NCBI RefSeq assembly: GCF_000827595.2
Contig: NZ_LN776184.1
Coordinates: 94,033-158,032, forward strand
Source of the DNA: Necropsobacter massiliensis
GTDB lineage: Bacteria > Pseudomonadota > Gammaproteobacteria > Enterobacterales > Pasteurellaceae
Length of the DNA: 64,000 nucleotides
Direction of reading: 5' to 3'
Shown: positions 2,762 through 16,965 of the stretch, piece after piece
Layout of the letters: the number at the start of each line of letters is the position of its first letter
Position numbering within the stretch: position 1 is the stretch's first letter
Position numbers and translations under genes: made by a program
Notes under the pieces: model-generated
What the model saw: only the letters and a program-made list of their open reading frames with translations
Told to the model about the DNA's origin: nothing
Database searches by the model: none

Positions 2762-2971
2762 TTGGCTGCAAGATATATCGCCCACCTTCGTCGCACAGAC
2801 GGCGCCATTCAATCCGTAGAAACCCACCTGACAGAAACCGCTGCCATTGCACAAGTTTTGGCGAAAAAACTCAATTTAGCGCCAGCCGGCGAACTCCTCG
2901 GGCTTATGCATGATTTTGGGAAATATTCCCATGTTCTAATTTTATCGTGGAGAAATAAATGTCCGACATGA
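2762..2971 (+). pseudogene. Truncated N-terminal fragment of a second, diverged cas3 (HD domain start)
   Basis: A 70-codon reading frame starting at TTG 2762, with AAGGAG seven bases upstream (GTG 2726 is an in-frame alternative). It begins ARYIAHLRRTDG, contains a conserved THL and ends in GLMHDFGKYS, the pattern of the start of a type I-C Cas3 HD nuclease domain (His...HD...K). After GKYS similarity stops and the frame closes at 2971, overlapping the intact cas3 start by 13 nt. It is not a copy of the downstream cas3, whose HD start differs (HDLGKF). The simplest reading is the leftover 5' end of an earlier resident cas3, now acting as a leader ORF and possibly coupling translation into cas3. 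Confidence 0.78.
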
Positions 2972-5463
2972 TCGCCCATGCCCGCCAAGGCTCATCCCAA
3001 AACTGGCATTCCCATCCTTTGCAAAACCACCTGCAAAAAGTCGCCAAACTTGCCAAGCGTTTTGCGGGGCGTTACGGGGCGCTATTTGCCGAATATGCGG
3101 GAATTTTGCACGACTTGGGGAAATTTCAGGCGGCTTTTCAAGAATATATACGTCGGGTTTCGGGCTTTGAACGGGAAAATGCACACCTTGAAGATGTCGA
3201 ATCTTCTAAACCGCGCAAAATTCCCCATTCCACCGCAGGAGCAAAATATGCTGTCCGCCGTCTCGATCCGTTTTTCGGGCATTTGCTGGCTTATCTGATT
3301 GCAGGGCATCATGCGGGTTTAGCGGATTGGTATGACAAGGGCAGTTTGAAACACCGTTTGCAACAGGCGGATTACGAATTGGCAAAGTCTTTGTCAGGGT
3401 TGGTAGAAAGCGGATTGCCCGAAGATTTTTTCTCTTTATCGGATGATAACTTGGAGCAGAGTTTTTTTGCTTTTTGGGAAAACGGGGCAAATTTGGACGA
3501 ACTACATATTTGGATGCGTTTTCTTTTTTCCTGTTTGGTGGACGCCGATTTTTTGGACACTGAAGCTTTTATGAACGGCTACACCGATGCGGATGCCGCG
3601 CAGGCGGCTGGATTACGCCCACGATTTCCCGACTTGAATACATTACACCTGCGCTACGAACAATATATGGCAAAGCTTAGCCAAAAGGCAGATAAAAATT
3701 CGACTTTAAATCAAGAACGCCATAGCATTTTACAGCAATGCTTTTCTGCTGCAGAAACCGACCGCACTTTATTTTCTTTGACCGTGCCGACCGGCGGCGG
3801 CAAAACTTTGGCAAGCTTAGGGTTTGCTTTGAAGCACGCACTAAAATTCGGCAAAAAGCGCATTATCTACGCCATTCCCTTTACCAGCATTATTGAACAA
3901 AATGCCGATGTTTTTCGCAGGGTGTTGGGCGATGATGTGGTGTTGGAGCATCACAGCAATTTGGAAGTAAAGGACAACAAGGAAACCACCAAAACCCGCC
4001 TTGCCACGGAAAACTGGGATGCGCCGTTGATTGTTACCACCAATGTACAACTGTTTGAAAGCCTGTTTGCGTCGAGAACCAGCCGCTGCCGCAAGATACA
4101 CAATATTGCCGACAGCGTGATTATTTTAGACGAAGTTCAGCAGCTGCCGCGTGATTTTCAAAAACCGATTACCGACATGATGCGGGTGCTAGCACGCGAT
4201 TATGGCGTTACCTTTGTGCTTTGTTCGGCGACCCAGCCTGAACTTGGCAAATATATTGATTCGTTCGGGCGTACCGTTTTGGAAGGTTTGCCGGATGTGT
4301 GTGAGATTGTTGCGGACAAAGTCGCCTTATCGGAACGACTGCGTCGCGTCCATATCAAAATGCCGCCGCCAAACGGCAAGACGCAAAGCTGGCAGGAAAT
4401 CGCTGATAAAATCGGCGAACGTCCCTGCGTTTTGGCAGTGGTCAATACCCGCAAACACGCCCGTAAACTCTTTGCCGCCCTGCCTTCACACGGCATCAAA
4501 CTGCACCTGTCCGCCAATATGTGTGCCACGCATCGCAGCGAGGTAATTGCGCTGGTTCGCCGATATTTACAGCTGTATCGTGAAGGTCGCCTGAAAAAGC
4601 CTTTGTGGCTGGTCAGTACACAACTGATTGAGGCGGGCGTGGATTTAGATTTTCCTTGTGTTTATCGGGCAATGGCGGGGTTGGACAGCATTGCCCAAGC
4701 GGCGGGACGGTGTAACCGCGAAGGCAAATTGCCGCAACTGGGTGAAGTGGTCGTATTCTGCCCGGAAGAAGGTGCGCCCAATGGCAGCCTGAAACAGAGC
4801 CAGGGCATTACCGAAGAGATGTTGAAAATCGGGCTGCTTGACGATCCGCTCTCCCCATTAGCATTTGCCAAATATTTCTCCCGTTTTAACAGCAAAGGCG
4901 ATTTGGACAAGCATGGAATAACAAAACTTTTAACGGCGGAAACGTCCGATGACAATCCGTTGGCAATCAAATTCCGTACTGCCGCCGAGCGCTTCCGCTT
5001 GATTGACAATCAAGGGATTGCACTGGTTGTGCCGTTTATTCCACTTGTTCATCAGAACAATGAAAATAAAACGTCGCAAATCGTCAAAGCAAACGAGCTG
5101 GATGACTTTTTCAGACAGCATTTGGACGGGGTAGAAGTTTCGGAGTGGCAGAAAGTTTTAGGCAAATATCGTTACCCGCAGTCGCCCGACAACCAATTCG
5201 GGCAAACTGATAAACCGCCTTTACCTGAGCCTTTTGAAAACTGGTTCGGGCTGCTGGAAAACGATCCGCTCAAATACAAATGGGTGTACCGCAAACTGCA
5301 ACGATACACGATTACCGTGTATGAACACGAACTGAAAAAACTGTCTGCAAATGCCATTTTTCCCAGAGCAGGATTGCTGGTACTGGATAAAGGCTATTAT
5401 CAAGACGTGCTTGGTGCGGATTTTGATGATACAGTTTGGCAGCCAGAAAGTTCGGTTTTATGA
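2959..5463 (+). CDS. cas3: CRISPR-associated helicase/nuclease Cas3, type I-C
   Basis: 834-aa Cas3 that degrades DNA after recruitment by Cascade. The N-terminal HD nuclease shows His residues near 18-24 and the HD pair at 51-52 (GILHDLGKF). The superfamily 2 helicase follows, with Walker A VPTGGGKT near 275 and a DEVQ box near 390; motif VI (AAGRCNREG) is also visible. ATG 2959 follows a GGAGA ribosome site and overlaps the short upstream remnant. A strong hairpin begins one base after the stop codon, so cas3 is probably a separate transcription unit from cas5 onward. The coding sequence contains a perfect Pasteurellaceae uptake signal (3761-3769) and two one-mismatch Neisseriaceae uptake sequences (4584-4595, 4782-4793). 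Confidence 0.96.
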   Translation: MSDMIAHARQGSSQNWHSHPLQNHLQKVAKLAKRFAGRYGALFAEYAGILHDLGKFQAAFQEYIRRVSGFERENAHLEDVESSKPRKIPHSTAGAKYAVRRLDPFFGHLLAYLIAGHHAGLADWYDKGSLKHRLQQADYELAKSLSGLVESGLPEDFFSLSDDNLEQSFFAFWENGANLDELHIWMRFLFSCLVDADFLDTEAFMNGYTDADAAQAAGLRPRFPDLNTLHLRYEQYMAKLSQKADKNSTLNQERHSILQQCFSAAETDRTLFSLTVPTGGGKTLASLGFALKHALKFGKKRIIYAIPFTSIIEQNADVFRRVLGDDVVLEHHSNLEVKDNKETTKTRLATENWDAPLIVTTNVQLFESLFASRTSRCRKIHNIADSVIILDEVQQLPRDFQKPITDMMRVLARDYGVTFVLCSATQPELGKYIDSFGRTVLEGLPDVCEIVADKVALSERLRRVHIKMPPPNGKTQSWQEIADKIGERPCVLAVVNTRKHARKLFAALPSHGIKLHLSANMCATHRSEVIALVRRYLQLYREGRLKKPLWLVSTQLIEAGVDLDFPCVYRAMAGLDSIAQAAGRCNREGKLPQLGEVVVFCPEEGAPNGSLKQSQGITEEMLKIGLLDDPLSPLAFAKYFSRFNSKGDLDKHGITKLLTAETSDDNPLAIKFRTAAERFRLIDNQGIALVVPFIPLVHQNNENKTSQIVKANELDDFFRQHLDGVEVSEWQKVLGKYRYPQSPDNQFGQTDKPPLPEPFENWFGLLENDPLKYKWVYRKLQRYTITVYEHELKKLSANAIFPRAGLLVLDKGYYQDVLGADFDDTVWQPESSVL

Positions 5464-5495
5464 AAAATGCCCCTATCGTTCGTTAGGGGCATTTT
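5464..5495. terminator. Bidirectional terminator between cas3 and the crRNA-like RNA
   Basis: Perfect 12-bp stem AAAATGCCCCTA (5464-5475) / TAGGGGCATTTT (5484-5495) with an 8-nt loop and T-rich sequence on both sides. It can end cas3 on the plus strand and the guide-like RNA arriving from the right on the minus strand. Confidence 0.85.
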
Positions 5496-5574
5496 GCCAT
5501 TTTTAACATAGCATCATAGTTTCAACACACAGCCGCCAAAAAGCGAGCGAGCACTAACTAACTTCATAACGAAT
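5464..5574 (-). ncRNA. Putative CreR-type crRNA-resembling RNA (orphan half-repeat plus pseudo-spacer)
   Basis: On the minus strand, 5530-5519 reads GTGTGTTGAAAC, identical to the last 12 nt of every array repeat and covering the expected 11-nt type I-C crRNA 5' handle. Upstream the repeat is degenerate, although a short imperfect hairpin (UCGCU/GGCGG) can still form. Downstream, from 5518 leftward, comes a guide-like sequence starting TATGATGCTATG that runs into the terminator at 5495-5464. The guide matches the cas5 promoter next to a TTC PAM (separate entry). A weak minus-strand promoter (TTGTAA 5610-5605, 18 bp, TATTCT 5586-5581) could start it, so the right end given is approximate. CreR/CreA-type guides are known from other CRISPR-Cas systems; applying that here is inference. 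Confidence 0.72.
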
Positions 5575-5637
5575 TGTATGAGAATAGTTTAGCGTAAGCA
5601 TATTTTACAACTTATTAGGAAAATAAGCGAATTGTAC

Positions 5638-5666
5638 TTGACATATCCGTCGATGTAATTTATAAT
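5638..5666 (+). promoter_or_regulatory. Consensus sigma-70 promoter of the cas5-8c-7-4-HNH-1-2 operon
   Basis: TTGACA at 5638-5643 and TATAAT at 5661-5666 with the optimal 17-bp spacer: a perfect consensus promoter, expected start near 5673. AAAGGAGG (5685-5692) follows before the cas5 ATG at 5697. A 6-bp inverted repeat CTTATT/AATAAG (5611-5627) lies just upstream, and the 9-mer CGAATTGTA occurs at 5570-5578 and 5628-5636. Confidence 0.9.
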
Positions 5667-5680
5667 ATAGCTTCATAGAA
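5654..5680 (-). promoter_or_regulatory. Predicted Cascade operator in the cas5 promoter (PAM plus partial protospacer)
   Basis: On the minus strand, TTC (5680-5678) is followed from 5677 by TATGAAGCTATATTATAAAT. Against the pseudo-spacer starting at 5518, positions 1-5, 7-11, 13-15 and 17-20 match; 6, 12 and 16 do not. Positions 6 and 12 are flipped out in type I crRNA-DNA hybrids. The site covers the -10 box and the transcription start, so binding should block initiation. The short match should favour binding without Cas3 cleavage, by inference from known guide-length effects. Confidence 0.72.
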
Positions 5681-5696: not shown

Positions 5697-6341
5697 ATGA
5701 GTTTTATCCTAGAAATCAGCGGTGATTTTGCATGCTTTACAAGACCTGAATTCAAGGTGGAAAGGGTAAGCTATCCCGTGATTACCCCCTCTGCAGCTAG
5801 AAACATCCTGATGGCAATTTTATGGAAACCTGCCATTCGGTGGAGGGTGCTGAGAGTAGAGATTTTAAAGCCAATTCAATGGGTTAATATCCGTCGCAAT
5901 GAAGTCGGCAGCAAAATGAGCGAACGCAGCGGTTCTCTTTATATTGAAGACAACCGTCAGCAGCGCGCATCCATGTTGCTCAAAGACGTTGCCTACCGCA
6001 TTTACGCCGATTTTGAAATGACACACGAAGCAGGCGAGGGCGACAACTACGTCAAGTTTGCCGAAATGTTTAAACGACGTGCCAAAAAGGGACAGTATTT
6101 TCACCAACCTTATTTGGGTTGCCGCGAGTTTCCTTGCCATTTTAGATTGCTGGAAAAAGCCGAAGACGGCTTGCCACGTGAAGACATTACTCAAAATTTT
6201 GGCTTTATGCTGTACGACATGGATTTCAGCAAATCCGCTCCACGCGATTCCAACAATGCCGAGCCAATGTTTTATGAGTGTAAAGCTGTAAACGGCGTAA
6301 TTATCGTGCCACCTGCTGACAGTGATGAGGTGAAACGATGA
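5697..6341 (+). CDS. cas5c: Cas5 of type I-C (Cas5d/Cas5c), pre-crRNA processing endonuclease
   Basis: 214-aa RAMP-family protein beginning MSFILEISGDFACFTRPEFK, with the conserved early stretch SYPVITPSAARNILMAILWKP. In type I-C, which lacks Cas6, Cas5 cuts the repeat at the base of its hairpin and stays bound to the 5' handle in Cascade. It is the first gene of the operon behind a consensus promoter and AAAGGAGG site. Its stop overlaps the cas8c start by 4 nt (ATGA), indicating translational coupling. Confidence 0.95.
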   Translation: MSFILEISGDFACFTRPEFKVERVSYPVITPSAARNILMAILWKPAIRWRVLRVEILKPIQWVNIRRNEVGSKMSERSGSLYIEDNRQQRASMLLKDVAYRIYADFEMTHEAGEGDNYVKFAEMFKRRAKKGQYFHQPYLGCREFPCHFRLLEKAEDGLPREDITQNFGFMLYDMDFSKSAPRDSNNAEPMFYECKAVNGVIIVPPADSDEVKR

Positions 6342-8134
6342 TTCTGCATGCATTAACCAAATACTATCAGCGTAAAGACGGTGTCGCCCCTGAAGGGTTT
6401 GAAAATAAAGAAATCCCGTTCATTATCGTCATAGACAGGGACGGTAAGTTTATCCGGCTTGAAGATACTCGCGAGCAAAAAGGCAAGAAGAAAATAGGAC
6501 AGAAATTTCTTATCCCCAAAGACCAGCATACGACTGGTAAAAGTGCTTATAAAGCAAGCAATATTTTATGGGATCACTATGGTTATGTACTAGCCTTTCC
6601 GAAGGAAGTAGAAGGTATTGCTAAAAAAACTCCAGAAGAGATCGAAGTTGAAAAGGAAAAAAATCGCCTTTTAGCCAATAATCAGCACGCCAGTTTTACC
6701 GCCAAAGTGAACGAGCTAAAACAGGCATTGCCTGATGATGCAGGTATTGCCGCCGTTGCCGCTTTTTTGGCTTCTGCCGAAGAAAAAGGCAAAGTTATGC
6801 AGTCTGAAAACTGGGCAGAATGTGCCAAGGTTAAAGGCTGCAATCTCAGCTTTCGTTTGGTGGAAGAGGCGGTGGATTTGGTTTGTCAGTCAAAGGTGGT
6901 TCGGACATATGTGAGCCAAACCAATCAGGCGCAATCTGATAATGTCCCCAAAGGCATTTGTCTGGTAACGGGCAAACCTGCACCGATTGCGCGATTGCAT
7001 AACGCCGTCAAAGGCGTGAATGCCAAGCCTGCCCCGTTTACATCGGTAAATTTGTCGGCTTTTGAATCTTACGACAAAGAACAAGGCTTTATCTTTCCCG
7101 TGGGCGAACAAGCCATGTTCGAATACACCACCGCCTTAAACACCCTGCTTGCCGGCGACAACCGTTTCCGTATCGGCGATGTAACTACCGTATGCTGGAG
7201 CGAAAAGCCGACCCCGCTGGAAAGCTGTGTTTCAAGATTGCTAAACGGTGGCGGCAAAGACAATCCCGATGACCATATCGATGCCGTCAAAACGCTCTAT
7301 AAAAGCCTGTACAACGGCAAATACACAGAGCCCGACGGCAAAGACAAATTCTACCTTTTAGGTTTATCGCCCAATTCCGCACGTATCGTCGTCCGCTTTT
7401 GGCACGAAACCACCGTTGCCGCTTTATCCGAAAACATCGCGGCATGGTATGACGATTTAAAAATAGTGCGCGGCGAAAATTCGCCTTATCCCGAATATAT
7501 GCCGTTGCCGCGTCTGCTGGGCAATTTGGTGCTGGACGGCAAAATGGAAAACCTGCCCTCCGACTTAATCGCTCAAGTAACTGATGCCGCGCTCAACAAC
7601 CGCGTTTTGCCCGTCAGCCTTTTGCAGGCTGCTTTGCGGCGCAATAAAGCGGAACAGAAAATCACCTATGGCAGGGCAAGCCTGCTCAAAGCCTATATCA
7701 ACCGCGCAATCCGCGCAGGTCGTCTGAAAAATATGAAGGAGCTGACTATGAGTTTGGATAGAAACCGTCAAGACATCGGTTATGTGCTGGGGCGGCTGTT
7801 TGCCGTGCTGGAAAAAACACAGGCCGAAGCCAATCCCGGCTTGAACGCCACCATTGCCGACCGCTATTTCGGCTCGGCAAGCAGTACGCCGATTGCCGTG
7901 TTCGGCACGTTGATGCGCCTGCTGCCACACCATTTAAATAAACTCGAATTTGAAGGGCGCGCCGTTCAATTGCAATGGGAAATCCGCCAGATTTTGGAAC
8001 ATTGCCAAAAGTTTCCAAACCATCTGAATTTAGAGCAGCAAGGCTTGTTCGCCATCGGCTATTACCACGAAACCCAATTCCTATTCACCAAAGACGCATT
8101 GAAAAACCTGTTTAACGAAGCAAAAACCGCATAA
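6338..8134 (+). CDS. cas8c: Cas8c (Csd1), large Cascade subunit, type I-C
   Basis: 598-aa large subunit that recognises the PAM and anchors the R-loop; in I-C an internal start can also yield a Cas11-like small subunit. Csd1 features are visible: N-terminal MILHALTKYYQRKDG, the central CLVTGKPAPIARLHNAVKG zinc-ribbon-like segment, and the C-terminal ALRRNKAEQ...YINR helical region ending in FAIGYYHE. The ATG at 7748 (MSLDRNRQDIGYVLGRLFAV) is a plausible internal start for the small subunit. An exact 12-mer AGGTCGTCTGAA, a Neisseriaceae uptake-sequence dialect, lies at 7717-7728. Confidence 0.96.
   Translation: MILHALTKYYQRKDGVAPEGFENKEIPFIIVIDRDGKFIRLEDTREQKGKKKIGQKFLIPKDQHTTGKSAYKASNILWDHYGYVLAFPKEVEGIAKKTPEEIEVEKEKNRLLANNQHASFTAKVNELKQALPDDAGIAAVAAFLASAEEKGKVMQSENWAECAKVKGCNLSFRLVEEAVDLVCQSKVVRTYVSQTNQAQSDNVPKGICLVTGKPAPIARLHNAVKGVNAKPAPFTSVNLSAFESYDKEQGFIFPVGEQAMFEYTTALNTLLAGDNRFRIGDVTTVCWSEKPTPLESCVSRLLNGGGKDNPDDHIDAVKTLYKSLYNGKYTEPDGKDKFYLLGLSPNSARIVVRFWHETTVAALSENIAAWYDDLKIVRGENSPYPEYMPLPRLLGNLVLDGKMENLPSDLIAQVTDAALNNRVLPVSLLQAALRRNKAEQKITYGRASLLKAYINRAIRAGRLKNMKELTMSLDRNRQDIGYVLGRLFAVLEKTQAEANPGLNATIADRYFGSASSTPIAVFGTLMRLLPHHLNKLEFEGRAVQLQWEIRQILEHCQKFPNHLNLEQQGLFAIGYYHETQFLFTKDALKNLFNEAKTA
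7717..7728 (+). other. Neisseriaceae-type DNA uptake sequence (exact) inside cas8c
   Basis: AGGTCGTCTGAA, identical to the AG-mucDUS dialect as I recall it from the Neisseriaceae uptake-sequence literature. It is foreign to the Pasteurellaceae signal found elsewhere in the window. Confidence 0.8.
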
Positions 8135-8146
8135 GGAGCAAACATC

Positions 8147-8998
8147 ATGACTATCGAAAAACGCTACGACTTTGTCTTTTTATTTGACGTGCAAGACGGC
8201 AATCCCAACGGCGATCCCGACGCAGGAAACCTACCGCGTATCGACCCGCAAACCGGCGAGGGATTGGTAACCGATGTCTGCTTAAAACGTAAAGTGCGCA
8301 ACTTTGTTCAGATGACCCAAAATGACGAACATCACGATATTTTTATCCGTGAAAAAGGCATTTTGAATAACCTGATTGATGAAGCGCACGAACAGGAAAA
8401 CGTAAAAAACAAAGAAAAAGGCGAAAAAACCGAAGCCGCCCGTCAATATATGTGCAGCCGTTATTACGACATCCGCACATTTGGTGCAGTCATGACCACC
8501 GGAAAAAATGCAGGGCAAGTTCGCGGGCCGGTACAACTGACTTTTTCCCGCTCCATTGACCCGATTATGACCTTGGAGCACAGCATTACCCGCATGGCGG
8601 TTACCAATGAAAAAGACGCCAGCGAAACCGGCGACAACCGCACCATGGGACGCAAATTCACCGTCCCTTACGGCTTATACCGCTGCCACGGCTTTATTTC
8701 CGCCCACTTTGCCAAACAAACCGGCTTTTCCGAAGAGGATTTAGAGCTGTTTTGGCAGGCTTTAATCAATATGTTCGATCACGATCATTCTGCTGCACGC
8801 GGACAAATGAACGCACGCGGACTTTATGTATTTGAACACAGTAGTAGCCTGGGCGACGCGCCTGCCGACAGCCTGTTCAAATGCATTCAGGTAGCCAAAA
8901 AAGACGGCGTGGAAGTTGCCAGAAACTTTGACGATTACATTGTCAGCGTAGATGAACAAAACCTTGGCGAAACCAAACTCTTACGCAGACTAGGCTGA
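8147..8998 (+). CDS. cas7: Cas7 (Csd2), Cascade backbone subunit, type I-C
   Basis: 283-aa Cas7/Csd2 that polymerises along the crRNA spacer. The N-terminus [20 protein letters not shown] and the central [20 protein letters not shown] are hallmarks of the family; [21 protein letters not shown] is the conserved later segment. AAGGAG precedes the ATG after a 12-nt gap from cas8c, and cas4 starts 2 nt after the stop, so the four genes are tightly co-translated. Confidence 0.97.
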
Positions 8999-9000
8999 AA

Positions 9001-9654
9001 ATGACTGCACTTTTAGCAGAAAACCAAGGGGAAAATCAGGACATCCGCCTGATTCCCCTTTCCGCCCTGCAACACTACGCCTTCTGCCCGCGCCAGTGTG
9101 CATTAATTCACAACGAGCAGGCGTGGGCGGAGAATTATTTGACCGCGCAAGGAAGTGCACTGCACGAGCGGGTGGATTCTGGCGAGCCGGAAACGCGCAA
9201 GGGCGTGCGTTTTGAGCGGACGGTGCACGTTGCGGCGGAAAAACTGGGTATCAGCGGCGTGCTGGATTTGGTGGAGGTTGAGACGAAAACAGGTCGCTTG
9301 AAACCGGTGGAATACAAACGCGGCAAGCCCAAACCCGATCCGATGGACGAAATCCAGCTTTGCGCTCAAGGCTTGTGCCTGGAAGAAATGACCGGGAAAA
9401 TCATCAGCGAGGGCGCACTGTGGTATATGCAAACTCGCCACCGCATCCCCGTCGTGTTTTCAGACGACCTGCGCACCAAAGCCCTCGCCACCATCGCCGC
9501 CGTCCGTGAACTCTTAAACAGCGGCCTAACCCCGCCGCCCGACTACAGCAAACACTGCAAAGCCTGCTCGCTGGTGGAAATCTGCCAGCCGGAACTGCTG
9601 GGAAAACGGGATAGGAGTGTGGGGTATGTGGAGGGGTTGTTTACCAATGATTAA
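9001..9654 (+). CDS. cas4: Cas4 nuclease, type I-C
   Basis: 217-aa RecB-like Cas4 with the FCPRQC iron-sulfur cysteines (29 and 33) and the C-terminal CxxC...C cluster (KHCKACSLVEIC). The nuclease core is visible as GVLDLVE and PVEYKRGKPK. In type I-C, Cas4 works with Cas1-Cas2 to trim prespacers so that integrated spacers have the correct PAM and orientation. A second exact Neisseriaceae-type uptake 12-mer lies on the minus strand at 9470-9459. The unrelated HNH gene follows after only 11 nt, which separates cas4 from its usual partner cas1. Confidence 0.96.
   Translation: MTALLAENQGENQDIRLIPLSALQHYAFCPRQCALIHNEQAWAENYLTAQGSALHERVDSGEPETRKGVRFERTVHVAAEKLGISGVLDLVEVETKTGRLKPVEYKRGKPKPDPMDEIQLCAQGLCLEEMTGKIISEGALWYMQTRHRIPVVFSDDLRTKALATIAAVRELLNSGLTPPPDYSKHCKACSLVEICQPELLGKRDRSVGYVEGLFTND
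9459..9470 (-). other. Neisseriaceae-type DNA uptake sequence (exact) inside cas4
   Basis: Minus-strand AGGTCGTCTGAA (plus TTCAGACGACCT). It is the second exact copy in the operon, 1.7 kb from the one in cas8c. Confidence 0.8.
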
Positions 9655-9665
9655 AGGATATAAAC

Positions 9666-10820
9666 ATGAATTGCATATATTGTAGGGAAGAGAAACAAAT
9701 TGATGAATTCAGCTTGGAGCATGTTGTCCCACAGTTTCTTGGTGGAAATTTTGTATCAGATAAATTTAAAACAAGAAATGTGTGTAAAAAATGTAATAAC
9801 AATCTAGGACTTTTTGTTGATGCTGCATTTGAAAAAGATTGGTTGGTATTCAATTATCTAAAGAGTCAGGCGCATGCATTTTTTAATCCGAAAGCACCAA
9901 CATCTCTTCCTTTGCATTACATGGGGCATAGTGCAATAAATCCACCGCATATGGTAGATGGAGAAATATGTGAGTGTTGGTTAGGGCCACTAGGGGAGCA
10001 AATCTTTTGGATTAGACCGGATGATGAAAAGTTATATTGGTATGCTGGAGGAAATCCGCGTACAGTTAAAAAGCAGAAAACAAGAGCATATTTTATTTTT
10101 GCTGAACGTTCTTTAAAAAATTTTGAGTTGGCATTACTGTCATTTAAAGATGCTTTTGAGGGCAAGCCTGTCAAGAAAATTATGTGTACTCGTCTAGACG
10201 AAGAAAATATTTTACCTAGAATAGGCTTTTCAAATCCTGATGACATAGATCAAGAAAGAATAGGATTCTTTTTAGAAAGTGTAAGAGGTGGAAAAGAACA
10301 GCATTGCAAATACCATAAAAACGTATTTGCTGAAAATCGATTTATTGCGAAATTAGCACTTGGAATTTTGCATTGTTTATTCAATAAGAGCAAATTTTCT
10401 AGTGAATACATGGAAGAGCTTTATAAGGGATTGTGGTATAGAACAGGAGATAACATTCCTAAAATCCCTGGTTCAAGGGCACTTCATGAAGGTAAAGATT
10501 TAAAAAGGTTATTAGGTGTTCCGTATGGCACGACTATATCTATTTTAAAGAGTAACAATCTATTGATTATGAATTTAAATATTGGTACAGAACTTAATTA
10601 TTCTATTCAATGTGGAGAAATTGAAGAGTTAGATAGTCAAGAGGCAGAAATATTTGATCAAGGCGGGTTATGTATTGTTATTTATAAACCTTTACAACGT
10701 TTTATTGAGTTGGGACTGTATGAATTTATAGCGCATAAAAGTGGAGATTATATTAATGATGACTTATCTGAGATTGAAAGTATGCTCCACAATAATGAGG
10801 ATTATTTTAAGAATTTATAG
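9666..10820 (+). CDS. HNH-endonuclease-like protein inserted between cas4 and cas1
   Basis: 384-aa protein with an N-terminal zinc-finger HNH motif: CIYC (Cys3, Cys6), EHVVPQFLGG (His19) and CKKCNNNLG (Cys40, Cys43, Asn). This resembles HNH_5-type nucleases. The remaining 330 residues, a mixed alpha/beta region (e.g. RFIAKLALGILHCLFNKS), I do not recognise. An AAAGGA site lies between the cas4 stop and the ATG, so it is expressed within the cas operon. It is clearly more AT-rich than the flanking cas genes and is followed by a 167-bp gap with an inverted-repeat element before cas1. It is not a standard type I-C component. It could be a defence passenger, an adaptation or interference accessory, or a homing-type insertion; no function is assigned. 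Confidence 0.8.
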   Translation: MNCIYCREEKQIDEFSLEHVVPQFLGGNFVSDKFKTRNVCKKCNNNLGLFVDAAFEKDWLVFNYLKSQAHAFFNPKAPTSLPLHYMGHSAINPPHMVDGEICECWLGPLGEQIFWIRPDDEKLYWYAGGNPRTVKKQKTRAYFIFAERSLKNFELALLSFKDAFEGKPVKKIMCTRLDEENILPRIGFSNPDDIDQERIGFFLESVRGGKEQHCKYHKNVFAENRFIAKLALGILHCLFNKSKFSSEYMEELYKGLWYRTGDNIPKIPGSRALHEGKDLKRLLGVPYGTTISILKSNNLLIMNLNIGTELNYSIQCGEIEELDSQEAEIFDQGGLCIVIYKPLQRFIELGLYEFIAHKSGDYINDDLSEIESMLHNNEDYFKNL

Positions 10821-10825
10821 TCTGA

Positions 10826-10923
10826 GTAGGTCGTATATTTTTATCCAACAACATTTTGATATTTATATAGTTTAAAATCATTTCTGTAATTTTGAAAATG
10901 TCGGATTCGAGAATCCGACCTAC
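10826..10923. repeat. Inverted-repeat-bounded element upstream of cas1
   Basis: GTAGGTCG (10826-10833) pairs with CGACCTAC (10916-10923), enclosing a compact hairpin GTCGGATTC-GA-GAATCCGAC (10900-10919). Directly downstream, TTCAGGCAGCCC (10929-10940) is one mismatch from the complement of a Simonsiella-type uptake sequence. This may be a small mobile-repeat remnant left at the HNH insertion, or a terminator. No ORF is present. Confidence 0.55.
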
Positions 10924-10987
10924 CGATTTTCAGGCAGCCCAACCATGCCAATCCTAAAACTGCGGTCAAACCCCAAGGAGTTTTCCC

Positions 10988-12001
10988 ATGCGCAAACTGC
11001 AAAACACGCTGTATATCACCACCCAAGGCAGTTATCTGCATAAAGAGCGGGAAACGCTGGTGGTGGAGCAGGATCGTAAGAAGGTGGCGCAGTTGCCGGT
11101 GCATTCCATCGGACATATTTTCTGTTTCGGCAATGTGCTGGTGTCGCCGTTTTTACTCGGATTTTGCGGTGAAAATAATGTGAATCTGGCGTTTTTTACC
11201 GAAAATGGGCGTTTCTTGGGGCGGCTTCAGGGGCGGCAAAGCGGCAATGTGCTGCTGCGTCGGGTGCAGTATCGGGCGTCGGAGCAAAATCCAGTGCCGA
11301 TTGCGCGCAACATCATCGCGGCAAAAATTCAGGCGTCAAAACGCGTATTACAGCGACGACTGCGAAATCACGGGGAGCATCAAGCCGTGCAATCAGCGAT
11401 TTCAGCCTTAAATATCAGCTTGCAACAATTAAAAAGAGCTGAAAATCTAGACTTTATTCGAGGCATTGAAGGTGAGGCTGCATCGCGCTATTTTGGCGTA
11501 TTTGCAAATTTATTCACCGAGAAAAACGAATTTACGTTTGATGGTCGTCACCGTCGTCCGCCACGCGATGGTATTAATGCGCTGTTATCATTTCTGTATA
11601 GTATCCTAGGCAAGGACATCAGCGGCGCGCTACAAGGCGTGGGGCTGGACCCGCAGGTAGGATTTCTGCACGCAGATCGTCCGGGAAGAGATAGTTTAGC
11701 GCAGGATATTCTTGAAGAATTTCGAGCTTGGTGGGTTGATCGTATGGTGCTGAGTTTAGTCAATCGCGGTCAAGCCAAACCACAGGACTTTATTACCGAG
11801 GCGAGTGGCGCAGTCAATATGAAGCCTGAATTACGTAAGCTGATATTTCAAACGTTACAACTGAAAAAACAAGAAAAAATTATTCATCCTTTTTTACAGG
11901 AAGAAGTTGAAATCGGACTACTCCCCTATATCCAGGCAATGTTATTAGCACGGCATCTTCGTGGCGATCTGGCAGAATATCCACCGTTTTTAATGAGATA
12001 A
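10988..12001 (+). CDS. cas1: Cas1 integrase, type I-C
   Basis: 337-aa Cas1, the metal-dependent integrase that inserts spacers at the leader end with Cas2. Catalytic motifs are present: GIEGEAA (Glu near 161-163), FLHADRPGRDS (His228) and AQDILEEFR (Asp240 with following Glu). Length matches I-C Cas1. AAGGAG lies 6 nt before the ATG. The preceding 167-bp gap breaks the tight spacing of the upstream genes, so cas1-cas2 may have extra transcription input. cas2 begins 4 nt after the stop. Confidence 0.97.
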   Translation: MRKLQNTLYITTQGSYLHKERETLVVEQDRKKVAQLPVHSIGHIFCFGNVLVSPFLLGFCGENNVNLAFFTENGRFLGRLQGRQSGNVLLRRVQYRASEQNPVPIARNIIAAKIQASKRVLQRRLRNHGEHQAVQSAISALNISLQQLKRAENLDFIRGIEGEAASRYFGVFANLFTEKNEFTFDGRHRRPPRDGINALLSFLYSILGKDISGALQGVGLDPQVGFLHADRPGRDSLAQDILEEFRAWWVDRMVLSLVNRGQAKPQDFITEASGAVNMKPELRKLIFQTLQLKKQEKIIHPFLQEEVEIGLLPYIQAMLLARHLRGDLAEYPPFLMR

Positions 12002-12005
12002 AACC

Positions 12006-12299
12006 ATGCTTATGTTAATTACTTATGATATATCATTTGAAGATCCCGAAGGACAGGTCCGATTACGTCGTATCGCCAAACATTGCTTAGACTACGGGGT
12101 TAGGGCACAATACTCAGTATTCGAATGTGATGTGACGCCTGAGCAATGGGTAAAACTAAAACGGAAGTTATTAGAAACCTATAATCCCGAATCAGATAGC
12201 CTCCGCTTCTATCATTTAGGTAGTAAATGGCGAAATAAGGTGGAACATCACGGCGCTAAACCTGCGCTGGATATTTTTAAGGATATATTAATTCTCTGA
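12006..12299 (+). CDS. cas2: Cas2, spacer acquisition subunit
   Basis: 97-aa Cas2 with the N-terminal ferredoxin-like strand MLMLITYDIS (Asp8) and the GVRAQYSVFECDVTPEQW core typical of I-C. It dimerises to bridge two Cas1 dimers. It is the last cas gene; the leader starts immediately after its stop codon. Confidence 0.96.
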   Translation: MLMLITYDISFEDPEGQVRLRRIAKHCLDYGVRAQYSVFECDVTPEQWVKLKRKLLETYNPESDSLRFYHLGSKWRNKVEHHGAKPALDIFKDILIL

Positions 12300-12487: not shown

Positions 12488-15400
12488 CCGGCTACCTACG
12501 CGTAGCCGTGTGTTGAAACCACCGCACTTTTTAAGATTGCCGCGGCGCGGCGCCGGCTACCTACGCGTAGCCGTGTGTTGAAACAAAATTTAATAGGGGC
12601 TAGGATCTAATTTTTTGAACCGGCTACCTACGCGTAGCCGTGTGTTGAAACCCTACATAATCCTCGCGCAATGCTTTCTGCCGTTTCCGGCTACCTACGC
12701 GTAGCCGTGTGTTGAAACTAAAAACACGTCTCCTATCGCTTTAGGCGCATATCCGGCTACCTACGCGTAGCCGTGTGTTGAAACAATTTGCACAAGTTGA
12801 AGATCCGGGGTATTTACAGACCGGCTACCTACGCGTAGCCGTGTGTTGAAACCGTTTAATATTCTGAATATAGATAAGTGCAGCGAACCGGCTACCTACG
12901 CGTAGCCGTGTGTTGAAACTCTTTATCATTATCTAGGACAACCCACTCTTTCCCCGGCTACCTACGCGTAGCCGTGTGTTGAAACAACAGTGCCCTCTTT
13001 AGTATATTGATTATAAGCGCCGGCTACCTACGCGTAGCCGTGTGTTGAAACATTATCAGATGCTCAAATTGGCGAACGTGTAATAACCGGCTACCTACGC
13101 GTAGCCGTGTGTTGAAACCAAAGGTTTTAACTTATCAAATTTTAAATCTAGCCGGCTACCTACGCGTAGCCGTGTGTTGAAACAATTTATACTTAGTTTG
13201 ACTTCTGATCGAAAATCCCGGCTACCTACGCGTAGCCGTGTGTTGAAACTAAATGCTTTTCTAAAAGATCTAGCCACGTTGCCCCGGCTACCTACGCGTA
13301 GCCGTGTGTTGAAACTTCATATAATTTTAAAGTTTGGTTCATTGGGTTAGCCGGCTACCTACGCGTAGCCGTGTGTTGAAACTAACGTTTAGCTATGAAT
13401 TTGATGAAATTGTTTAACCGGCTACCTACGCGTAGCCGTGTGTTGAAACAGCGTACCGCCTTTTAATCCGACTAACGGAATATCCGGCTACCTACGCGTA
13501 GCCGTGTGTTGAAACATCACAATCCGAAGCAGATCATGCGTTAATTAATATCCGGCTACCTACGCGTAGCCGTGTGTTGAAACAAATAATATTTTTTCTT
13601 TAATATCAAAACATTCTGGCCGGCTACCTACGCGTAGCCGTGTGTTGAAACCATTGGACAGGGTATTCAAAACCTTGACTATTGGCCCGGCTACCTACGC
13701 GTAGCCGTGTGTTGAAACCATATTGTTTTTAATTTTTCAGCGTTTTGTTGAACCGGCTACCTACGCGTAGCCGTGTGTTGAAACTTTATGCCCTCTGTCA
13801 AATAAACGTTTCAGTCTAGCCGGCTACCTACGCGTAGCCGTGTGTTGAAACTAACTCTGTTTCAAGTGCTACGTCTTTTAATTCACCGGCTACCTACGCG
13901 TAGCCGTGTGTTGAAACTTAAAATTGAAACTGTCTTCATCGTTATCATCTCCGGCTACCTACGCGTAGCCGTGTGTTGAAACTGCAATTTTATTTAACGT
14001 CTGATTAAGGGCGTTCCCGGCTACCTACGCGTAGCCGTGTGTTGAAACACCCAAACCGATGAATGTTCGTGCTAATGGTTGCCCGGCTACCTACGCGTAG
14101 CCGTGTGTTGAAACCACTGTTGATGATTACCTCCGATATATGTATTTGGCCCGGCTACCTACGCGTAGCCGTGTGTTGAAACACCCAATCTTTAGCATTG
14201 CCTGGCGCAACCCATGCCCGGCTACCTACGCGTAGCCGTGTGTTGAAACAATTCTTTTGTCAAATTCCCATAAGCCAGATCGTCCGGCTACCTACGCGTA
14301 GCCGTGTGTTGAAACTAATTGGCTGCCTCGTTGCATATCGGGGGATTGGCCGGCTACCTACGCGTAGCCGTGTGTTGAAACCATGCTTTAGGCTTTTAAA
14401 AAGAGGATTAAAAAACCGGCTACCTACGCGTAGCCGTGTGTTGAAACAATTACACTAACGTTGAATGTAGTGATGTTGAATCCGGCTACCTACGCGTAGC
14501 CGTGTGTTGAAACTCTTTGTCGAAAGCGTCCACGGGCTAAATTCAGGAACCGGCTACCTACGCGTAGCCGTGTGTTGAAACTAAAGTATAGCGGAAAATA
14601 ATGCGAGAATAATGCCCGGCTACCTACGCGTAGCCGTGTGTTGAAACACTGATATGTAGTACCAATGCGCGCGTTTACAATACCGGCTACCTACGCGTAG
14701 CCGTGTGTTGAAACCATGCTTTAGGATTTTAAAAAAAAAGAGGACTTGCCGGCTACCTACGCGTAGCCGTGTGTTGAAACTAATTCACGGGTAGCTTTTG
14801 TTTCATCTGCTTTGCCGGCTACCTACGCGTAGCCGTGTGTTGAAACATTTTTATCCAAAAATCCATTATACTTTATACTTCCGGCTACCTACGCGTAGCC
14901 GTGTGTTGAAACACTTTACAATGTAGGTATTTACGGCTGGACTTGTGCCGGCTACCTACGCGTAGCCGTGTGTTGAAACGTTAAGCCAAATCTCAAAGCG
15001 TTGTGTAGCAATTCCGGCTACCTACGCGTAGCCGTGTGTTGAAACCCATCCAAACATTGGGGATAACCTCCAAAGCGTACCGGCTACCTACGCGTAGCCG
15101 TGTGTTGAAACAATACCAAAATCTTGCAGATGCGCTTGTACATTACCGGCTACCTACGCGTAGCCGTGTGTTGAAACTGGAGAACTATTTATTTGATTAT
15201 CACAAAATTCATCCGGCTACCTACGCGTAGCCGTGTGTTGAAACAGTAACTTACAAAGTATAATGTACCATTCATAAACCGGCTACCTACGCGTAGCCGT
15301 GTGTTGAAACAATTAAAGAGGGATATTTAGCGCCGCTTATTCCTAACCGGCTACCTACGCGTAGCCGTGTGTTGAAACTGCAATTTTATTTAACGTCTGA

Positions 15401-16965
15401 TTAAGGGCGTTCCCGGCTACCTACGCGTAGCCGTGTGTTGAAACACCCAAACCGATGAATGTTCGTGCTAATGGTTGCCCGGCTACCTACGCGTAGCCGT
15501 GTGTTGAAACACTACTGAAAACGCTTTGAAATTATTAGGAGATTCCGGCTACCTACGCGTAGCCGTGTGTTGAAACGGCAAAGATAAAAACGCTGGGCGC
15601 GGAATTGACGCCGGCTACCTACGCGTAGCCGTGTGTTGAAACCATTGCTTAACGAAACCGCCATTGCTATGCACTGCCCGGCTACCTACGCGTAGCCGTG
15701 TGTTGAAACCTCGATGATAGAGGTCACGCCATCTTGAATTATTCCGGCTACCTACGCGTAGCCGTGTGTTGAAACTAGCGCTGTTATATCCCGCCGGAAT
15801 GGTGACATATCCGGCTACCTACGCGTAGCCGTGTGTTGAAACTCGTAAGCATGAAGAGGTATCTGAGAAATTATCTCCGGCTACCTACGCGTAGCCGTGT
15901 GTTGAAACCAATTTATGCTCACTTTCTCTGGCCAAATCATTGCCGGCTACCTACGCGTAGCCGTGTGTTGAAACCGCATAGGTATCAATAAAATTATTAT
16001 AGATAGCTCCGGCTACCTACGCGTAGCCGTGTGTTGAAACCTGACGTTGTTATTGACAAGTTGCACAAATGAGCCGGCTACCTACGCGTAGCCGTGTGTT
16101 GAAACTGTTGCTGTAAGTACCGTCGATGGCGCAATTATCGCCGGCTACCTACGCGTAGCCGTGTGTTGAAACTAATCCAATGAACCAAACTTTAAAATTA
16201 TATGAAGCCGGCTACCTACGCGTAGCCGTGTGTTGAAACTTCCTTTTTTATCCTTGCGTATATCCAAAATCATCCGGCTACCTACGCGTAGCCGTGTGTT
16301 GAAACATCAACCAAGCTGTCCGATAACGCCTCAAAAAATGCCGGCTACCTACGCGTAGCCGTGTGTTGAAACTCAATCCAGTCTGAATTGAATCCCATCT
16401 CGTGTAGCCGGCTACCTACGCGTAGCCGTGTGTTGAAACGGCAATGCCAAAAAAATGGTACGCTGGGAGGCGACCGGCTACCTACGCGTAGCCGTGTGTT
16501 GAAACTATTTCTGCGATCTATGATTTTCATAATTTTAACCGGCTACCTACGCGTAGCCGTGTGTTGAAACTTTCCCATCTAAAAATTTTTGCATCGTTTT
16601 GCGATCCGGCTACCTACGCGTAGCCGTGTGTTGAAACTATTTCTGCGATCTATGATTTTCATAATTTTAATCCGGCTACCTACGCGTAGCCGTGTGTTGA
16701 AACATTAATAAAATCATCAATTGTCGGATAATTTGCACCGGCTACCTACGCGTAGCCGTGTGTTGAAACCGTGCCTAATTGATAATTACTCCATTGCCCA
16801 TTACCGGCTACCTACGCGTAGCCGTGTGTTGAAACGAGGTCTCTGTCGATTTCATCTAACGTAAACCGACCGGCTACCTACGCGTAGCCGTGTGTTGAAA
16901 CAAACATACTTATATGACGGAAATTTTGTTTGAGCCAGCTACTTGCGCTTGGCTTATGTTGAAAC
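12488..16965 (+). CRISPR. Type I-C CRISPR array, 67 intact repeats plus one degenerate terminal repeat
   Basis: The 32-nt repeat begins CCGGCTACCTACGCGTAGCC and ends GTGTGTTGAAAC, with a GGCTAC/GTAGCC stem. It recurs every 65-68 bp from 12488 to 16901 with no variation that I saw. A degenerate copy ending TTATGTTGAAAC lies at 16935-16965, marking the old end. I count 67 spacers of 33-36 nt. Numbering from the leader: spacers 23-24 recur as 44-45; 61 and 63 are the same sequence but differ by one nt in length; 29 and 34 are variants of one target; 13 and 56 are reverse complements with one substitution. Short reading frames crossing the array are artefacts. Confidence 0.98.

Follow-up and report, generated by a model that had tools for sequence, protein, structure and literature searches.

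CreRs, off-array crRNA-like RNAs with which a CRISPR effector represses its own cas genes, typically arise from mini-CRISPRs bounded by two repeats. Stand-alone repeats whose spacers partly match the promoters of cas or cargo genes were reportedly described by Shmakov et al. 2023, in a study said to cover many type I systems. Type I-C is among the commonest subtypes, has the smallest Cascade and uses Cas5d as its repeat nuclease. According to the available part of PMC13131331, autorepression by CreRs has been published for types I-B, I-E and V-A; a second source gives the scope in its available text as 'Type I and Type V-A' (PMC12737573). The same text describes CreTA and CrePA, whose effector is led by a crRNA-like guide to repress a gene that lies inside the CRISPR-Cas locus (PMC12737573). 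Solitary repeats are also found in phages, where they are called Racrs, and the accessible portion of PMC10651486 includes a type I-C example.

Between cas3 and cas5 of the type I-C locus of Necropsobacter massiliensis lies an element that, judged from its sequence and from its relatives, very probably provides a CreR-type guide through which Cascade would repress its own operon. It was studied within a stretch of 64,000 nt (the window, to whose first letter all positions refer), which contains every core gene of the system. As in CreRs, a repeat-derived handle of 12 nt (5530-5519, minus strand) stands outside the array within the cas locus, a predicted crRNA-like guide is partly complementary to a cas promoter with the correct PAM (17/20 positions, TTC, on the -10 box), the match is too short for full interference, and repression would come from the system's own effector; by analogy, relief by anti-CRISPRs or competing crRNAs would be expected. 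The element differs from described CreRs in belonging to type I-C, with Cas5d as the repeat nuclease, and in its predicted divergent transcription between cas3 and cas5. It is also bounded by a single pseudo-repeat, a hairpin replacing the second repeat of a mini-array both here and in four counterparts discussed below, and because of this we class it as a variant that would work like a CreR. New within the known CreR kind are the type I-C setting, the single pseudo-repeat and the hairpin end. The preliminary description of the locus knew of no example in a Pasteurellaceae type I-C system; in the available text of the literature searched, a scope that excludes Shmakov et al. 2023 and Liu et al. 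2023, no type I-C CreR was found, but CreR autorepression as such was already known from the three types named above.

The mini-arrays that Shmakov et al. reportedly describe share with the element a stand-alone repeat and a promoter-matching spacer. The likeness to CreTA and CrePA lies in a crRNA-like guide and in control of a gene within the locus, but the element has no toxin gene and its target is a cas promoter; the plus-strand cargo mini-arrays of other loci, described below, are closer to CrePA. Racrs resemble it as solitary repeat units outside an array, but, in the portion of the source available, they reside on mobile elements and disable Cascade, whereas this element lies between cas3 and cas5 of a complete type I-C locus and carries a guide that matches the cas promoter.

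The features of the locus are collected in Table 1. The gap between cas3 and cas5 measures 233 nt, and none of the plus-strand open reading frames (ORFs) of at least 20 aa starts inside it, on which ground CreTA-type toxin control was rejected; the ORFs of at least 20 aa that touch the gap comprise four frames of 23-51 aa. A known Rfam RNA was likewise rejected, as the two sub-threshold Rfam matches both fall in cas3 and none in the gap. Elsewhere in the locus, the HNH_5 gene sits as an insertion between cas4 and cas1 and has no NCBIfam match, and a fragment of a Cas3 HD domain, 81 aa long (2726-2971; TIGR01596, E 1.5e-5, under the curated cut-off), abuts the full-length cas3 upstream. Two adjacent spacers of the array are present twice in the same order (13983/15379 and 14049/15445), 1396 nt apart, which suggests a segment duplication.

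Table 1. Features of the type I-C locus and of the element between cas3 and cas5 (window positions).
Feature	Positions	Strand	Basis or remark
cas3	2959-5463	+	TIGR01587 and TIGR01596 above cut-offs; 5' of the guide, outside the putatively repressed promoter
Hairpin in second-repeat position; predicted to terminate the minus-strand RNA and, on +, shared with the cas3 end	5464-5495	-	
Guide, position 1 at 5518, ~23 nt ahead of the hairpin	5496-5518	-	Promoter match 17/20
3' portion (19 nt) of the pseudo-repeat, derived from the repeat; predicted crRNA 5' handle	5519-5537	-	Repeat identity
Remnant of the CRISPR repeat hairpin, with a bulge, on the 5' side of the handle	5532-5548	-	RNA fold
Promoter of the cas5 operon, TTGACA-17-TATAAT	5638-5666	+	12/12 consensus matches
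Protospacer-like target, position 1 at 5677	5658-5677	-	Mismatches 6, 12, 16
TTC PAM	5678-5680	-	Directly before the target
cas5 (Cas5d/Cas5c, type I-C), first gene of the putatively regulated operon	5697-6341	+	TIGR01876, E 1.2e-51
cas8c and cas7, remaining Cascade subunits	6338-8998	+	TIGR01863 and TIGR02589
cas4, HNH-domain gene, cas1, cas2	9001-12299	+	Profile matches
HNH-domain gene	9666-10820	+	PF14279 HNH_5, E 1.2e-15
CRISPR array, 67 identical 32-nt repeats	12488-16901	+	

Read along the minus strand, the gap holds the bulged hairpin (5548-5532), the handle (5530-5519), the guide (from 5518) and the second hairpin (5495-5464). The handle sequence GTGTGTTGAAAC has 67 plus-strand copies in the window, all of them in the array, and a single minus-strand copy at 5519-5530, which bears out the earlier statement that the final 12 nt of the repeat recur outside any array. 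The longer 19-mer GGCGGCTGTGTGTTGAAAC occurs once in the 64-kb window when up to 3 mismatches are allowed and in none of 100 shuffles; across the 2.49-Mb genome there is one copy of its last 16 nt. When the guide TATGATGCTATGTTAAAAAT is aligned with the target TATGAAGCTATATTATAAAT, only positions 6, 12 and 16 are mismatched, and the TTC is found at 5680-5678 on the minus strand, both as originally claimed. The PAM and seed TTCTATGANGCTAT have one occurrence in the genome, which is the cas5 promoter. Scored over positions 1-16 without 6 and 12, the guide reaches 13/14, a value attained by 3 of 20000 dinucleotide-shuffled guides at any of the 614 TTC sites in 17 kb. Past position 20 there is no sustained match (guide TATGATGCTATGTTAAAAATGGCAAAATGC, target TATGAAGCTATATTATAAATTACATCGACG); we infer that so short a match spares the locus from Cas3. 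TTC is a known type I-C PAM, and the available text on the type I-C system of Neisseria lactamica gives TTC and TTT as the PAMs used (PMC10865793).

With the -10 box at 5661-5666 and the start predicted at about 5673, the target at 5677-5658 spans both, in agreement with the preliminary description. Signals for transcription of the minus strand are harder to place. The promoter scan returned 2 matches against 0.9 expected by chance, and its sole minus-strand match lies inside the cas5 promoter region (5659-5631); upstream of the handle, a TACAAT with a weak -35 box (by eye) is kept in the Neisseriaceae locus L182.

The two hairpins differ in strength. The stem of the pseudo-repeat in the window has a one-base bulge and a predicted energy of -7.5 kcal/mol, which 25 of 200 shuffles equal and which is therefore not unusual, and as the hairpin is both bulged and weak, its cutting by Cas5d is uncertain. 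The corresponding stem of L182 has no bulge and folds at -11.3 kcal/mol, with 1/200 shuffles as stable, and pseudo-repeat stems are seen too in the RNA folds of L033, L036 and L073. The array repeats in L057 and L045 share the last 19 nt of the handle without a difference, and the repeat core of the pseudo-repeat recurs in the array of L182, the sister locus. From these sequences it seems that the array in the window altered its repeat stem and that the stand-alone copy retained an older version. The hairpin at 5495-5464 folds at -17.2 kcal/mol, with none of 200 shuffles equally stable, and hairpins occupy the equivalent place in L033, L036, L182 and L073. Of the earlier claim that a terminator hairpin closes the RNA, the hairpin itself thus holds, but the pattern scan called it a terminator on the plus strand only; that the minus-strand RNA ends there is a prediction.

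Other type I-C loci were collected by Cas5 searches, which gave a match in 54 of 140 genomes of the family, in 18 of 83 genomes of the Neisseriaceae neighbourhood and in 12 of 268 of the Pelistega neighbourhood; from the search of genome contigs, the best 80 of 164 relatives were used. Stretches around cas5 from 140 loci were analysed after removal of 5 duplicates, L069-L072 and L074 being left out since they are the same contigs as L033-L037. An earlier scan of the best 80 of 164 loci, using the last 8 nt of each locus's own array (an array was found in 44/80), did not detect Pelistega, since handle and array repeat are unlike there, admitted several chance matches with 8-9 of 10 seed positions, and was replaced by a wider one. 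In the latter, every NTTGAAA[CTG] within 1.2 kb upstream of cas5 was a candidate handle (n=226), and its best target was sought in the 6 kb upstream. A score of at least 14 was reached by 27/226 candidates against 2/499 decoys, and a score of at least 15, the window's own value, by 15/226 guides against 0/499 decoy-led ones. High scores cluster near cas5, with 25/60 handles at -260 to -55 and 2/166 elsewhere. Handle-like sites far from cas5 in L045 and L049 (score 14, GTT, inside cargo genes) are taken as chance.

A stricter, repeat-like pattern, G[TCA]GNNTTGAAA[CT], is found 34 times in the 140 loci, 25 times with a match of at least 14 and nine times without one (L038, which scores 13, L058, L062, L183, L184, L186, L189, L198 and L204). 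For six of the nine (L058, L183, L184, L186, L189 and L198) no cas3 end was found upstream within the fetched stretch, and the expected target may therefore be outside it. On the minus strand, each of the five repeat-like handles in the 1.2 kb before cas5 is accompanied by a match to the promoter, so that a handle kept after loss of its match, the outcome that would have spoken against the reading, does not occur in this arrangement among the 140 loci. Fourteen further minus-strand copies of NTTGAAA[CTG] in cas3-cas5 gaps score 10-12 and do not have the repeat-like 12 nt.

These five loci, the window together with Glaesserella australis HS4635 (L033) and Aggregatibacter actinomycetemcomitans HK_961 (L036), both Pasteurellaceae, a Neisseriaceae genome (L182) and Pelistega europaea (L073), share the whole arrangement: cas3 is followed by a handle, a guide and a hairpin on the minus strand, which face a cas5 promoter with TTGACA. 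The TTGACA is retained upstream of the target in 5/5 loci and the target lies on the -10 box in each, although that of L036 is poor (CGGTAT at spacing 17). Comparison of the gaps, as had been proposed, shows that the letters of guide and target vary together. Each guide fits its own promoter best, at 13 (window), 13 (L033), 12 (L036), 13 (L182) and 14 (L073) of 14 positions, and off-diagonal pairings reach 3-12, although the guide of the window fits the L033 promoter at 12/14, so that the swap discriminates that pair weakly. Differences in guide and target mirror each other between the window and L033 at positions 1 and 5, between the window and L182 at positions 4 and 9, between L036 and L182 at positions 7 and 13, and between the window and L073 at nine positions. 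In Actinobacillus vicugnae (L034), Aggregatibacter kilianii (L035) and Neisseria polysaccharea (L075), whose gaps measure 23-38 nt, handle and TTGACA are both absent from the 250 nt before cas5. The mirrored differences and the three relatives that have neither part indicate that guide and promoter are gained, lost and varied jointly; the same three close relatives show that the element is dispensable. From the joint variation in five loci it is likely that Cascade lowers its own production through the guide.

Bases 6 and 12 are unpaired in type I R-loops, a feature known from structures. The mismatches at 6 and 12 first noted in the window recur in its relatives. Over positions 1-13 of the five loci there are 7 mismatches, all at 6 or 12, with 0/55 in the other cells (p 1.7e-7). 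The main scan skips both positions and favours TTC, which biases its mismatch pattern, and the ranking was for this reason repeated over all 16 first positions without a PAM bonus. In this unbiased ranking 45/226 handles score at least 13, and TTC precedes the target in 15 of these 45 against 2/72 decoys. The enrichment tests use these 15 loci (at least 13/16, with TTC), in which position 6 accounts for 12 mismatches, position 12 for 8 and the other fourteen together for 15; the enrichment persists when L057 is removed (p 2.4e-14, positions 1-13), although some of the 15 are near-copies (e.g., L055 and L057) and the p-values do not refer to independent loci. The central idea of the preliminary description, a crRNA-like guide directing Cascade to its own promoter, is therefore supported by the five matched handles, the covariation and the mismatches at 6 and 12, and we regard the comparative evidence as strong.

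Most repeat-like handles lie on the plus strand, in 29 loci at 63-144 nt before cas5, and 20/29 have a match of at least 14. In 17 of these 20 the target is no more than 23 nt from the cas3 stop, and the gap between cas3 and cas5 is 748-4040 nt in 12 of the 17 and 336-493 nt in 5. In 12/17 the target is upstream of accessory genes, and several of these loci contain phage-defence genes. The guides of L051, L052 and L197 match 16/16 at the cas3 stop, where the target is preceded by TTA instead of TTC. Other placements are seen as well: in L092 (an Accumulibacter MAG) the mini-array lies in the apparent cas5 leader with its target just past the promoter (mismatches 6, 12, 17, 18 and 20), in L061 the target adjoins the mini-array, 174 nt ahead of cas5, and L064 has no cas3 end in the fetched stretch. 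In the 60 nt that precede cas5 in L045 and L057, the mini-array has a second pseudo-repeat that terminates in GTGTGTTAAGGAG, and the repeat copy therefore overlaps the likely ribosome-binding site of cas5. Cleavage of the cas mRNA leader by Cas5d could be a second layer of control in these two loci.

The cargo proteins of 7 of the 12 loci were compared with PADLOC, which found defence families in 5/7, namely KwaB (L045), SIR2 and HerA (L052), PD-T4-4 (L059), GajA and GajB of Gabija (L193) and PDC-M48B (L197); PADLOC gave none for the cargo of L055 (two of three ORFs) and L065, and no family was found for the cargo of L050. The five loci with defence families have mini-arrays 63-77 nt before cas5 and targets at the cas3 stop, and it is possible that their cargo is a backup held by Cascade. 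Thoeris (L048), OLD (L053) and DSR2 (L061) were also seen as cargo, and a guide to the cargo promoter was looked for in these three loci and none was found. More broadly, the junction between cas3 and cas5 may, in type I-C loci of Pasteurellaceae, Neisseriaceae and some Burkholderiales, be an exchangeable regulatory slot for a Cascade guide, a proposal to which we give somewhat less than an even chance. The guide would serve autorepression in the window and its counterparts; elsewhere, from a plus-strand mini-array ahead of cas5, it would direct Cascade to the promoter region of a second, built-in defence and silence it (Gabija, KwaB, SIR2-HerA, PD-T4-4 and others), with an anti-CRISPR freeing both Cascade and the backup.

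How far could the same sequences be explained without a working guide? The element could be a decaying relic that once led Cascade to the promoter and whose bulged hairpin now blocks processing, as the weak stem of the window beside the intact one of L182 and the loss of the element in three relatives might suggest. We consider this unlikely because the seed still matches at 13/14 with its PAM, and both guide and target differ from L182 at positions 4 and 9, as fits continued selection. Chance resemblance between the flank of an orphan repeat and a promoter has a negligible probability: partial matches are frequent in AT-rich promoters and 2/499 decoys do reach a score of 14, but 0/499 reach 15, and together with the shuffled guides, the covariation across five loci and the position-specific mismatches this led us to reject it, in keeping with the earlier judgement that the combination is hard to explain by chance.

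Alternatively, the RNA could act as plain antisense to the cas5 mRNA leader, independently of Cascade, since its transcription would run counter to that of cas5 and its sequence complements the plus strand. A start at about 5673 places only guide positions 1-5 in the mRNA, and the remainder of the match is mostly untranscribed promoter DNA, for which reason this extremely improbable reading was rejected; it would also leave unexplained the repeat-derived handle, the TTC and the confinement of mismatches to 6 and 12. A different question is whether Cascade binds the promoter for another purpose, such as activation, marking for primed adaptation or storage of an inactive complex. Sequence predicts binding and not its outcome, and as many plus-strand targets at the cas3 stop lie just upstream of a -35 box (by eye), activation is imaginable. 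In E. coli, off-target binding by Cascade did not affect local gene expression, according to the available part of PMC5904413, which shows that binding at a promoter need not repress. Another purpose is nonetheless very unlikely for the window, because the five minus-strand targets lie on the -10 box, where type I-C Cascade represses. The evidence for this comes from the N. lactamica type I-C Cascade in Neisseria gonorrhoeae, with which a TTC-adjacent spacer over the -10 box that pairs with the coding strand lowered the transcript about 10-fold, as given in the accessible text of PMC10865793; the geometry is that of the window, which supports repression upon binding at the -10 box.

Autorepression through a CreR-type guide would then proceed as follows. 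A minus-strand RNA would start upstream of 5550 and would be terminated by the hairpin at 5495-5464. Cas5d would trim it at the base of the repeat hairpin, or loading would occur untrimmed, and the RNA would enter Cascade as an ordinary crRNA does. Cascade would recognise the promoter by seed and PAM, and pairing over no more than 17-20 nt may allow binding without being enough to recruit Cas3. For the type I-E Cascade of E. coli, the available portion of PMC5904413 gives binding from 5 bp and interference above 18 bp; no statement on Cas3 recruitment in type I-C was found in the available part of PMC11417383. RNA polymerase would be blocked at the -10 box, lowering cas5-cas8-cas7-cas4-cas1-cas2, and cas3, which lies 5' of the targeted promoter, would be unaffected. 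By analogy with the CreR literature, competition for Cascade from array crRNAs would lift the repression, as would inhibitors that inactivate Cascade.

If the guide acts in this manner, the idea of self-regulating guides would reach type I-C. The natural pairs of guide and target would also document, free of any forcing, what is tolerated by Cascade inside cells, with mismatches that gather at positions 6 and 12 and are seldom found elsewhere in the seed. Anti-CRISPRs against type I-C Cascade should in that case raise cas expression, and in the loci that carry cargo they should turn on the second defence.
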